Made by a program: the position numbers and the translations under genes | The notes under the pieces: generated by a model | Told to the model about the DNA's origin: nothing | What the model saw: the letters and a program-made list of their open reading frames with translations, nothing else | The model's database searches: none | Assembly: GCA_944372055.1 (NCBI GenBank) | Contig: CALVYF010000006.1 | Span: forward strand, 1-52,962 | Reading direction: 5' to 3' | DNA length: 52,962 bases | Source of the DNA: an uncultured Bacilli bacterium | GTDB taxonomy: Bacteria > Bacillota_I > Bacilli_A > RF39 > UBA660 | Shown here: positions 40,799 through 43,695 of the stretch, piece by piece | Layout of the letters: every line of letters starts with the position of its first letter | Position numbering within the stretch: position 1 is the stretch's first letter

Positions 40799-41593
40799 AT
40801 GGCAAAAGAAAATAAAAAAGAAAAACGTCAATTAAAAATTAATATTGTTGTATATTTAGTACTAAGATTTTTAGTAATCGTATGTATGGTAGAGCAATCT
40901 TTAAAAGGGAACTGGCATAGTGTGGCACTATGTTTTCTAACATTAATATTGTTTACTCTACCAACAATTGCATCAAAAACTTTTAAAGTAAAATTACCAA
41001 CGACACTAGAAATTATCATTTATTTATTTATCTTTGGAGCAGAAATACTAGGAGAAATTCAAAACTTTTATGGAGTATTTAAACACTGGGATACTATGTT
41101 ACATACACTAAATGGTTTTCTATCAGCAGCAATTGGATTCTCACTAATCGATATTTTAAATAGAACAGAAAGATTTCATATCAAGATGACACCATTATTC
41201 GTAGCGCTAGTAGCTTTTTGTTTTTCTATGACAATCGGAGTATTATGGGAATTCTTTGAATTCACTGCAGATCGCTATTTTAATACGGACATGCAAAAAG
41301 ATAGAATTGTAGAAAAAATACAATCAGTAGAATTAAATAAAGAGAATAAGAATGATCCACTTATCATAGACGATATTAATAAAACCATTATCTATAGTGA
41401 TAACAATAAAAAAACGACAATTGAAGGTGGGTATTTAGATATAGGTATTATTGATACTATGAAAGATTTAATAGTCAATTTTATTGGTGCACTAGTGTTT
41501 TCCATTTTAGGTTTTTTATATATTAAAGACCGTGATGAATATAAGTTCATTGAAAGATTCTTACCAGTAATGAAGAAATTTAAAGAAGAATAG
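40799..41593 (+). CDS. YjdF/DUF2238-like membrane protein
   Basis: 264 residues with six helices. HWDTMLHTLNGFLSAAIGFS and GVLWEFFEFTADRYFNTDMQ are the typical paired histidine/acidic membrane motifs of the YjdF (DUF2238-like) family. An insertion of about 50 charged residues sits between helices 5 and 6. Function unknown. It follows the lipid kinase by 9 bp and probably shares its transcript. Confidence 0.65.
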   Translation: MAKENKKEKRQLKINIVVYLVLRFLVIVCMVEQSLKGNWHSVALCFLTLILFTLPTIASKTFKVKLPTTLEIIIYLFIFGAEILGEIQNFYGVFKHWDTMLHTLNGFLSAAIGFSLIDILNRTERFHIKMTPLFVALVAFCFSMTIGVLWEFFEFTADRYFNTDMQKDRIVEKIQSVELNKENKNDPLIIDDINKTIIYSDNNKKTTIEGGYLDIGIIDTMKDLIVNFIGALVFSILGFLYIKDRDEYKFIERFLPVMKKFKEE

Positions 41594-41613
41594 CCTAGGG
41601 TTATTTTTTTTTG
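41589..41613 (+). terminator. Rho-independent terminator
   Basis: AATAGCC, loop TAG, GGTTATT (one G-T pair), then a run of about nine T. It overlaps the stop codon of the YjdF-like gene. Confidence 0.75.
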
Positions 41614-41629
41614 AAATTTTTAAGGAAGA

Positions 41630-41664
41630 CTCCTACTTTTTTCGAATAATAAAGTAGGAGGTGA
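41630..41664 (+). promoter_or_regulatory. hairpin hiding the ribosome binding site of the PD-(D/E)XK gene
   Basis: CTCCTACTTT (41630-41639) pairs perfectly with AAAGTAGGAG (41651-41660), loop of 11 nt. AGGAGGTGA (41656-41664) is the Shine-Dalgarno of the gene that starts at 41669, so its 5' half is closed in the stem. Confidence 0.75.
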
Positions 41665-41668
41665 AATT

Positions 41669-42565
41669 ATTAAAAAATTTTATACATGCCGCTATGATAG
41701 AGCATTTAAAGAAGTATTCATGAACGAATCAAACAAAGACTTGTTAATTTATTTATTAGAAGGAATTCTAAAACTAAAAATAAATAACGTGGAATATCTC
41801 AATTTAGAACAAAATGTAGGAAATATCTACGTAAAAAGAAAACACTTCGATTTATTTTTAAAAACAGATATTGGAAATATCCAAGTAGAAGTAAATGCTT
41901 CTAATCTAAATTATGTAAAACCAAGAAATATGTCTTATATATGTGCAATATATTCTAACCATGTATTAAAAGGACAAAATTATAATCAAGATACTAAGAT
42001 TATACAAATTAATTTTAGTTATGGACTAGAAGATTCAGAAGAGAAAAGAGTATATTATGTACAAGATCAAAGTAATAAAAAATATGTGGAAAATTTTACC
42101 ATTTATGAAATCAATATGGAAAAATATATAAACTATTGGTATACTAAAAACAAAGAAAAAATAGAAGAAAATAAAGAAATAATTATGCTAGATTTAGAAT
42201 TAGAAGAATTAAAGCTTCTGTCAAAAGAAGATAGGATGGTGAAAAAATATATGAGTGAAATGGAAAAAATCAATAGTAATCCTGAATTTTTTGAATATAT
42301 GAGCGCAGAAGAAGATAATCGAAAGATAGAAAATTCTATTAGAAGAGAAATGATAGAAAGAGGATTAAAAGAGGGTTTAGAGCAAGGACTAGAGCAAGGT
42401 CTGGAACAAGGTCTGGAACAAGGTCTAGAGCAAGGTTTAGAGCGAGGACTAGAACAAGCAAAAATTGATATTGCTCATAATATGCTAAAAGATGGATTAG
42501 ATATTGTTACAATAGCTAAGTATACTGGTTTAGCTAAAGAAACAATCCAAGAAATGTCCAAATAG
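41669..42565 (+). CDS. PD-(D/E)XK nuclease family transposase (Rpn-like), ATT start
   Basis: 298 residues if started at ATT 41669, 281 from the ATG at 41720. ATT is preferred: the strong AGGAGGTGA ends 4 nt before it, no ATG, GTG or TTG lies in frame back to the TAA at 41621, and the segment it adds (YDRAFKEVF) is the conserved N-terminus of the family. The nuclease core shows HFDLFLKTDIGNIQVEVN with Asp and Glu in PD-(D/E)XK positions. The C-terminus has seven GLEQ-type units and a short helical end. Family members (PDDEXK_2, Rpn) are DNA nucleases that promote recombination and are often mobile. No terminal inverted repeats or target duplication were seen. No good promoter is visible between the upstream terminator and the gene. 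Confidence 0.8.
   Translation: MKKFYTCRYDRAFKEVFMNESNKDLLIYLLEGILKLKINNVEYLNLEQNVGNIYVKRKHFDLFLKTDIGNIQVEVNASNLNYVKPRNMSYICAIYSNHVLKGQNYNQDTKIIQINFSYGLEDSEEKRVYYVQDQSNKKYVENFTIYEINMEKYINYWYTKNKEKIEENKEIIMLDLELEELKLLSKEDRMVKKYMSEMEKINSNPEFFEYMSAEEDNRKIENSIRREMIERGLKEGLEQGLEQGLEQGLEQGLEQGLERGLEQAKIDIAHNMLKDGLDIVTIAKYTGLAKETIQEMSK
42374..42457 (+). repeat. seven 12-bp GLEQ codon repeats
   Basis: GLEQ in seven tandem units (one reads GLER), 84 bp in all. Common in PDDEXK_2/Rpn proteins, where it forms a helical linker and can change length by slippage. Confidence 0.9.
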
Positions 42566-42583
42566 TGATAAAAGAGATTAAAA

Positions 42584-42617
42584 AAATAAAGTAAAATAAG
42601 CTTACTTTATTTTTTTG
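42584..42617 (+). terminator. Rho-independent terminator
   Basis: AAATAAAGTAA (42584-42594), 7-nt loop, TTACTTTATTT (42602-42612), T run to 42616. Confidence 0.85.
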
Positions 42618-42678
42618 TCGATTTTTGTCATACGAAACATTTGTCATGTTTTGTCGAAATGCTAGAAAATATTTTCTA
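42614..42678 (+). promoter_or_regulatory. four phased TTTGTC repeats and a 16-bp palindrome upstream of the STAS-sigma operon
   Basis: TTTGTC starts at 42614, 42624, 42640 and 42650: two pairs, each spaced 10 bp (one helix turn), pairs 26 bp apart. A perfect palindrome, TAGAAAATATTTTCTA, follows at 42663-42678. The layout looks like a regulator-binding site. No convincing SigA promoter is seen; TATAGT at 42686 lies too close to the binding site. Confidence 0.55.
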
Positions 42679-42709
42679 TTTGTTTTATAGTGCAAATAGA
42701 GGTGAAGAC

Positions 42710-43048
42710 ATGCTAACAGTATCACGACAAGTAAACAGAGGAATCATATTTATTAGATTGGAGGGAGAACTAACTGCAAATAACTTCTATAAAGTGGCAG
42801 AAGAAATTAACTATTTATTATATAACCAAGGAATTTTAGTTTATGTATTTAACTTAGAAGACGTAAATAAAATAGATAAAGGCATATTGGAAAGTATTCA
42901 AAATAAGTTAACAGAAATCTTTTTAAAATGTGGTAGTGTTGCTATCTGTGGTATATCAACAAAATTAAGAAAAATGTTAGGAGAAAGAAAAAACGAATTA
43001 TTTTATGTAACAGAAGAAAAAGAAGTATTTCAATATATTAGTATTTAA
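42710..43048 (+). CDS. STAS-domain anti-anti-sigma factor-like protein lacking the phosphorylation Ser
   Basis: 112 residues from ATG 42710, preceded by GAGGTG; the longer frame from 42641 runs over the regulatory repeats. A single STAS domain of SpoIIAA/RsbV length. NLEDVNKIDKGIL aligns with the SpoIIAA loop DLSFMDSSGL, so the phosphorylated Ser is Lys57 and the next residue Gly58. In the family the unphosphorylated protein binds the anti-sigma kinase and frees the sigma factor; phosphorylation switches it off. A Ser-less form could not be switched this way. It lies 11 bp before a sigma-factor gene. Confidence 0.8.
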   Translation: MLTVSRQVNRGIIFIRLEGELTANNFYKVAEEINYLLYNQGILVYVFNLEDVNKIDKGILESIQNKLTEIFLKCGSVAICGISTKLRKMLGERKNELFYVTEEKEVFQYISI

Positions 43049-43059
43049 AAGGAGAGAAT

Positions 43060-43695
43060 ATGGACAGCATATTGGAATATGAAGATATGATTTATAAAAT
43101 GATTGGTAGATACCGAAACTTTGATAAAGAAGACCTATATCAAGTAGCGATGCTTGGTTTAATGAATGCTAAAAAAAATTATAATCCAAATGAAAATACA
43201 AAGTTTTCAACTTATGCTTATTATTATATTTTAGGAGAAATTAATGCTTATATTAGAGCAAGTAATCCTGTAAAGATAAGTAGAGACCTTCTTCGACTGA
43301 ACAAAAGCTTAGAGCATGCAAAAGAAGTGATGGCACAAAGATTAAAAAGGGAACCAACAACAGAAGAGCTATCTATCTTTTTAGAAGTTCCCATAGAAAA
43401 AATAGAAGAAGCAACACTTGCAACTAGACAGGTAGAGAGTCTAGATTACACCTATAGTGATGAAGAAAGTGATTTATATAATTCTTTTGGACAAGAAGAA
43501 ACACAAATGACCGAAGACTTCTTAGATCTAAAAGATGCCATAAAAAATCTCCCAAGAGAAGAACAACAGTTAATTATTGCGAGATATTATACGGGACTAA
43601 CACAACAAGAAACAAGCGAGTCTCTAGGAATATCTCAAGTACAAGTATCAAGAAAAGAATCAAAAATATTACAAAAGCTAAAGACAACTCTATAA
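43060..43695 (+). CDS. SigB/SigF/SigG-type RNA polymerase sigma factor
   Basis: 211 residues. Region 2: DLYQVAMLGLMNAKKNYNP and KFSTYAYYYILGEINAYIRA, like the FSTYAVPMIIGEI block of SigF. Region 3: PVKISRDLLRLNKSLEHAKE and RLKREPTTEELS. Region 4: the HTH in GLTQQETSESLGISQVQVSR. Short for the group (SigF about 255). The preceding STAS gene gives a spoIIA- or sigB-like arrangement with the anti-sigma kinase gene missing. It might be a forespore or stress sigma; SpoVA genes lie 3 kb downstream. A ribosome binding site (AAAGGAGAG) precedes the ATG. Confidence 0.9.
   Translation: MDSILEYEDMIYKMIGRYRNFDKEDLYQVAMLGLMNAKKNYNPNENTKFSTYAYYYILGEINAYIRASNPVKISRDLLRLNKSLEHAKEVMAQRLKREPTTEELSIFLEVPIEKIEEATLATRQVESLDYTYSDEESDLYNSFGQEETQMTEDFLDLKDAIKNLPREEQQLIIARYYTGLTQQETSESLGISQVQVSRKESKILQKLKTTL

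Follow-up and report, generated by a model that had tools for sequence, protein, structure and literature searches.

A putative competence-type promoter box inside a Shine-Dalgarno hairpin in the leader of an Rpn-family nuclease gene from an uncultured Bacilli bacterium

The closest described counterpart of the gene treated here is the RpnL/RpnS pair of Escherichia coli, which, in the available part of its description, shares with it PF12784/TIGR01784 membership, four-residue repeats on the C-terminal side, a possible internal RpnS start, multiple copies and a patchy distribution (PMC10327210). A Shine-Dalgarno (SD) hairpin, an AUU/AUC start and a competence promoter, all predicted for rpn here, are not mentioned in that part of the source. 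Rpn-derived genes behind a ComX box are also known from pneumococcus, where rpn pseudogenes are ComX-induced, with SPV_2082 rising by 6.6 log2 at 3 min (PMC6560143). According to the excerpts of that study, the pneumococcal genes are pseudogenes, whereas those described here are open reading frames, present in many copies and combining a hairpin with AUH (AUU, AUC or AUA) starts. In the open-licence literature, Rpn under ComX was found as these pneumococcal pseudogenes only, and no description of AUU/AUC starts or SD hairpins in rpn was found.

The SigX/ComX box of late competence genes consists, according to the accessible parts of the reports, of TACGAATA and a T-stretch, and commonly lies some 20 nt upstream of the start (PMC6001120, PMC5167698). 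The published systems carry this box on comEA and radC, as the local form does here, but the local core, TTCGAATA or TTCTAATA followed by ATA, differs from the published TACGAATA. In the pneumococcal ComX motif, as excerpted, the 3' part reads YTHTTMCGAATADWNWRRD and is followed by the transcription start (PMC6560143). A comparable leader is the 5' UTR of Staphylococcus aureus sigH, in which a perfect inverted repeat hides the SD ahead of a weak start (TTG), again with a link to competence (PMC3486894, in part). However, that repeat controls the sigma factor itself, whereas in the present case the gene is a predicted sigma target and the promoter lies inside the hairpin. In S. aureus, infC, ccpN and cvfC1 likewise have an AUU/AUA start directed by an extended SD, that of infC being AUA, although, as far as the available text of PMC13009471 goes, these are not nuclease toxins, unlike rpn.

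The stretch of DNA analysed here, referred to as the window, comprises 52,962 nucleotides of an uncultured Bacilli bacterium (contig CALVYF010000006.1). At 41669-42565 (+) it contains the Rpn-family PD-(D/E)XK nuclease gene rpnL, encoding 298 aa, with the following features.

41585..41615, + strand: stop region of the upstream membrane-protein gene and terminator-like sequence GCCTAGGGTTATTTTTTTTT (sequence)
41623..41626, + strand: AGGA, a -35-like element 17 nt before GAAT (AGGA-N17-GAAT comparison)
41630..41639, + strand: hairpin 5' arm, in the spacer of the putative promoter (sequence, folding, shuffles, pair counts)
41637..41655, + strand: ComX/SigH-type promoter box TTTTTTCGAATAATAAAGT, with core TTCGAATA at 41641-41648 (fit to the published motif; similar boxes at comEA and radC)
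41651..41660, + strand: hairpin 3' arm, covering the SD (sequence, folding)
41656..41664, + strand: SD AGGAGGTGA, its first base being the predicted rpn transcription start (sequence; start inferred from the published motif)
41669..41671, + strand: ATT start codon of rpn, 7 nt past AGGAGG (sequence; ATT at the same place in genomes G005, G006 and G010)
42350..42565, + strand: candidate internal rpnS (antitoxin) from ATG 42350, including the GLEQ repeat helix (analogy with the available part of PMC10327210)
42580..42617, + strand: rpn terminator-like sequence, AAAGTAA...TTACTTTATTTTTTT (sequence)

The translated product of rpnL lies above the cut-offs of both PF12784 (E 1.7e-16, 61.1 bits, cut-off 27.4) and TIGR01784 (62.4 bits, cut-off 52.1). 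GLEQ four-residue repeats precede a small C-terminal domain, a trait of the Rpn family, the number and type of such repeats differing among Rpn relatives. The candidate rpnS start, ATG 42350, has no clear SD and is retained in the G005, G006 and G010 copies. The gene probably encodes a DNA-cutting enzyme, predicted to be toxic. One rpn copy is present in the window's genome (1.35 Mb in 63 contigs), while rpn matches occur in 12 of 16 metagenome-derived genomes of the genus, several of them with 5-10, and in 137 of 291 genomes and 82 of 150 genera of the family. The site between the membrane gene and a STAS-sigF pair is occupied by rpn in 4 of 16 genomes and by other genes in 5, and is empty in 7, the upstream gene not being found in G005 and G013. 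The terminator-like sequence at 41585-41615 was not listed by two scans; in the terminator scan, the stretch examined ended too soon past it.

The first-pass annotation had seen no promoter after the upstream terminator. This view had to be given up, as a ComX/SigH-type box is found inside the hairpin. A sigma-70 promoter scan found none at the leader, with sites no more frequent than in shuffles. Positions 41637-41655 fit the published pneumococcal ComX motif at 18 of 19 positions, the core being off by one base (T for M), and a score of 18 is reached at only two positions of the window when both strands are scanned (motif from the available part of PMC6560143). The 5' T-stretch of the motif has no match at the window box, and the distance from CGAATA to ATT is 20 nt, as in published boxes. 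From the motif, rpn transcription is predicted to begin at 41656, the first base of the SD. The arrangement AGGA-N17-GAAT before an SD occurs in 8 of 75 rpn leaders of other genera, 1 of 31 leaders of the genus and near relatives and 0 of 138 controls, the -35-like element of the genus copies mostly reading TGGA. We take the AGGA at 41623-41626 to resemble the -35 element of sigma-H. AGGA-N-CGAAT has eight sites in about 0.83 Mb, of which only the window site precedes a long gene, two other listed downstream frames (61 and 89 codons) looking like chance. An ECF-type -35 reading of GGAAC was dropped on spacing.

The box is shared with competence genes. The pattern [CT][GT]AATAAT stands before the SD in 12 of 31 rpn leaders of the genus and near relatives, in 8 of 75 of other genera and in 1 of 152 controls, the sole control being a DUF1016 gene, and the loop of rpn leaders is well conserved even where the hairpin arms are not. 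The exact form TTTTTTCKAATAATA has 38 sites in 14 of the 16 genus genomes (13 for the reversed-pattern control), 26 of them with an SD-bearing gene directly downstream and 12 without. The 26 genes are rpn (10), C39 peptide exporter (6), radC (3), BRO-N (3), comEA (2), a restriction enzyme (1) and DUF1016 (1). Ahead of the comEA SD, most genomes have an AATAATA-like box together with a T-run; the regions in G001 and G012 diverge, and the comEA start of the window's own genome lies off contig. The radC box is present in G006, G011 and G012. Among 20 loci of a class-wide sample in which an N-terminus was recognised, none showed a box ahead of rpn. All 16 genus genomes contain comEC and a match to the SigH model, none of these matches lying above the curated spore_sigH cut-off (0/16), and SigH is the best-matching family for the sigma gene product. 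Gene names read from translations give the order cysS-mrnC-rlmB-sigma-secE in G008, and mrnC and rlmB precede the sigma gene in G000, an arrangement that we take to be SigH-like synteny. As a side observation, the C39-peptidase peptide exporter with the box, in six genomes (L317, L321, L322, L327, L328, L341), is a possible pheromone or bacteriocin exporter. The box likewise precedes the BRO-N genes in G000:C5 (L329), G002 (L330) and G004 (L332), where a TTACCA stretch upstream is able to base-pair with the SD AAAGGTGGTAA.

The perfect 10-bp hairpin over the SD that had been noted in the leader is borne out, with CTCCTACTTT at 41630-41639 pairing with AAAGTAGGAG at 41651-41660. The predicted fold of 41621-41740 contains exactly this stem, at -18.5 kcal/mol compared to a shuffle mean of -13.1 (z -2.1; matched by 4 of 200 shuffles), and the predicted cost of opening the window SD, 10.0 kcal/mol, is reached by 0 of 60 upstream shuffles. 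The median opening cost is 6.0 kcal/mol in 31 leaders of the genus and near relatives and 3.7 in 75 leaders of other genera, compared to 2.3 in 138 control genes of G006 (P 8e-7 and 5e-4, respectively), values that are not strict probabilities because the leaders are related by descent. Across 25 selected leaders, the share of pairing cells is 82.8% and drops to 45.6-66.4% if the arms are slid by 1 to 3 columns. The covariation test that had been proposed gave a divided result: the score was reached by only 2 of 500 shuffles, but the number of double-change pairs was reached by 91 of 500, so that true covariation is no more than moderate. An SD is covered by a stem of different sequence, partly as judged by eye, in L039, L040, L015 and L043, while the hairpin is weak or lost in L005, L006, L007, L054, L019 and L026 and absent in the G010 copies. 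The earlier proposal that folded read-through RNA would block translation fits this anatomy, in which SD occlusion exceeds that of controls. An upstream mini-ORF (ATGGAA..., ending in TAG before the SD) was rejected as a sensor: by eye, it lacks an SD of its own, occurs in only some of the copies and is missing from the window. In L039, L041 and L045, Rpn relatives of another genus, a possible 10-bp hairpin lies over a first SD, which is followed by a very short open frame and then a second SD before ATG.

As the first-pass annotation had stated, the stretch between the TAA at 41621-41623 and ATG 41720 has no in-frame ATG, GTG or TTG but only two ATT codons, at 41666 and 41669. The spacing between AGGAGG and the second of these is 7 nt. 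The check on conservation that it had suggested shows a start kept in kind: among 34 same-genus leaders counted by hand (32 from the main set and two of G005), 28 offer only AUC (21) or AUU (7) at the proper distance from a near-perfect SD, so ATT at 41669 is not a chance mutation. The seven AUU leaders are that of the window and two each of G005, G006 and G010. The remaining leaders comprise one with TTG (G006, same locus as the window), two with ATG (G011) and three in G013 with an ATG very near a weak SD plus ATA at the usual distance. Scored automatically, 31 leaders (26 from the genus, 5 from near relatives) comprised 23 with a near-cognate, 7 with a canonical and 1 with a weak start. Among 90 rpn leaders of other genera, the start was canonical in 64, near-cognate in 12, weak in 11, borderline in 1 and lacking in 2. 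Of these 12, which come from about eight genera, L168 is by eye really ATG and the others are AUA or AUU, L153 showing an ATG within its SD. Canonically starting relatives that lack the hairpin had been named as a counter-case; canonical starts do exist (TTG in L015, ATG in L040), but the hairpins remain, with opening costs of 8.3 in L015 and, for a weaker hairpin, 4.6 in L040.

Beyond the genus, too, rpn genes repeatedly show near-cognate starts, which are seldom seen in genes of other kinds. In a background of about 0.85 Mb, made up of the window and 0.8 Mb of G006 and restricted to genes whose SD has six or more matched bases, 353 canonical starts stand against one genuine non-rpn near-cognate gene, an MvaI/BcnI restriction enzyme. 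Eight near-cognate candidates passed this filter, namely two rpn genes (the window and one of G006), the MvaI/BcnI gene and others that by eye look antisense or have a nearby ATG; the filter was strict, so that a second G006 rpn and radC, both near-cognate-looking, fell out. AUH initiation is plausible in this lineage, because infC reads AUA both in the genus, behind GGAGGTG (GGAGGTGTTAATT-ATA), and in S. aureus (PMC13009471, in part). The rpn start resembles that of infC in sequence (AUU/AUA/AUC, standard spacing, an extended SD and no usable canonical codon), from which ribosomes are predicted to use it. Gene finders will probably mis-start or break rpn genes because of these repeated AUU/AUC/AUA starts. 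Some further starts are of the same kind: the MvaI/BcnI gene (G006 L254:18020-18766) and radC (G006:C2, around 47793, - strand) have an rpn-type box and apparent AUU/AUA starts, radC also having AUU in G012 and an available ATG in G011. The infC loci L272-L285 have an in-frame ATG or GTG inside or beside the SD, like rpn, and a distant rpn subfamily (L195, L237, L212, L171 (G193)) has AUA starts.

Other starts have to be weighed against AUU/AUC. In the 21 AUC-type leaders an in-frame GTG precedes AUC by 9 nt, and annotation programs would probably pick it; if it were the true start in most copies, the window copy would be an allele damaged by a 1-nt deletion. We regard this as very unlikely, since the GTG sits inside the SD, within AGGAGGTG, with no SD upstream of it, since the 1-nt shorter AUU form, in which GTG is out of frame, recurs in 7 leaders of 4 genomes with the conserved N-terminus still encoded where readable, and since L043 has ATT and no GTG. 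That translation begins at ATG 41720, the first in-frame ATG, and that the stretch upstream is non-coding deserves next to no credence. The claim that the conserved N-terminus lies upstream of this ATG holds, as non-majority letters over 32 leaders and 15 codons number 27/6/97 at codon positions 1/2/3; FYTCRYDRAFKEVF is also encoded by relatives that do have an upstream ATG, and homologues do not start at the position of ATG 41720.

Three further explanations concern the inverted repeat. It might be a by-product, the T-rich box pairing with the AG-rich SD by composition while selection acts on promoter and SD only. Part of the SD occlusion does come with the box itself, as other genes with a T-rich box also have a raised median opening cost (4.55 kcal/mol, n=26, vs 6.0 in rpn, P 0.036), and the hairpin is lost in several rpn lineages. 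Nevertheless, composition-keeping upstream dinucleotide shuffles are beaten at p 0.05 by 12 of 31 leaders of the genus and near relatives and 16 of 75 of other genera, against 7 of 138 controls; by eye, changes in the 5' arm of hairpin-keeping leaders are nearly all C to T, preserving G-U pairs, and L039 and L040 carry a stem of different sequence over an SD, which makes the by-product unlikely as a full account. Alternatively, the repeat could be a site in DNA, such as a repressor operator around the promoter, considering that it is centred on the promoter box and that in most copies the adjoining GTGATARTTATCAC forms a palindrome spanning the start codon. This we judge quite improbable, since many copies retain G-U pairing only, so that DNA symmetry is broken and RNA pairing intact, and since, by eye, the upstream AAATCACC of L195 and L237 can pair with GGTGATTT, a shifted part of the ribosome site. 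In IS10, IS50 and IS200, the transcript from the element's own promoter lacks the 5' arm and read-through RNA is translationally blocked. The rpn leader is alike in its predicted read-through protection, and its predicted fold places the SD in a 5' hairpin as in IS200; unlike these elements, rpn here showed no element ends. The IS200 parallel drawn earlier thus stands for the mechanism but not for the role of transposase, which is rejected for Rpn in the available part of PMC10327210, where no evidence of autonomous rpn transposition is reported. An IS200-like mobile element with a hairpin-damped transposase would agree with the multiple copies in the genus, with near-identical leaders at different places, and with a site filled in some genomes and empty in others. 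However, it is highly improbable: no terminal repeats or target duplications were identified, and comparison of filled and empty sites gave T-run junctions only, those matching the upstream terminator-like sequence being present in the rpn-free loci of G001 and G015. A scan placed terminators before 18 of 30 genus rpn leaders and 15 of 86 control genes, but insertion after terminators was dropped as a signature of transposition because the T-runs that seem to mark the 5' end also belong to the promoter box, as in comEA.

We thus favour, with a probability of about 0.65, the reading that the leader controls a gene for a nuclease (toxin) of the Rpn family, which would be expressed from a competence-type (ComX/SigH) promoter and guarded against accidental expression. 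On this reading, what had looked like a blindly damped transposase gene becomes a nuclease gene of the competence type with several guards. The terminator of the upstream gene would stop most read-through, and whatever RNA reads through would contain both hairpin arms and stay silent with its SD hidden. An mRNA made with the competence-type sigma factor would begin at about 41656 and lack the 5' arm, because the promoter box sits in the hairpin loop, which would leave the ribosome site freer. This predicted transcript has a 13-nt leader (AGGAGGUGAAAUU-AUU), in which the opening cost falls from 10.0 to 3.5 kcal/mol; for the predicted own transcripts of 31 leaders the median falls from 6.0 to 3.3. 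The AUU start (AUC in most relatives) behind a near-perfect extended SD would then give only a fraction of the yield of AUG, about a tenth for AUU if results with S. aureus reporters carry over (PMC13009471, in part). RpnS, if started internally, would escape both the hairpin and the AUU limit. Of the earlier idea that two layers of damping indicate selection for very low expression, both layers stand, but with a competence-type box sitting inside the hairpin, the leader probably serves to make expression conditional and not just very low. Judging from the sequence, the window rpn may be made only during uptake of foreign DNA, that is, be induced in competence. The ComX-induced pneumococcal rpn pseudogenes are independent support for the competence-type reading. 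More tentatively, and at somewhat less than even odds, mobile or toxic DNA enzymes (Rpn, DUF1016, MvaI/BcnI, BRO-N) would have been recruited to the competence regulon in the genus and probably the wider family, with Rpn acting in DNA uptake and otherwise silenced by a terminator and a promoter-bypassed SD hairpin, and with AUU/AUC capping the yield and favouring the internal antitoxin.

The release of RpnL from its antitoxin is called unresolved in the available part of PMC10327210, where regulated expression is suspected, and a competence-type promoter on open rpn genes would offer a testable answer for one lineage. Such genes would also give the pneumococcal pseudogenes a plausible ancestral function, and if the reading is true, the name 'recombination-promoting nuclease' would be literally apt, for a part played in natural transformation or in protecting the competent state. 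The hairpin around the promoter would be a compact way to ensure that RNA is translated only if it has been started correctly. With regard to the surrounding locus, window 41594-42710 appears as a gene-exchange hot spot between the membrane gene and the STAS-sigF-like pair in the 16 genomes compared. At 42710-43695, the STAS (SpoIIAA-like) gene adjoins the SigF-like gene with no anti-sigma gene in between, and TGTCGAA words are repeated in the region upstream of these genes.
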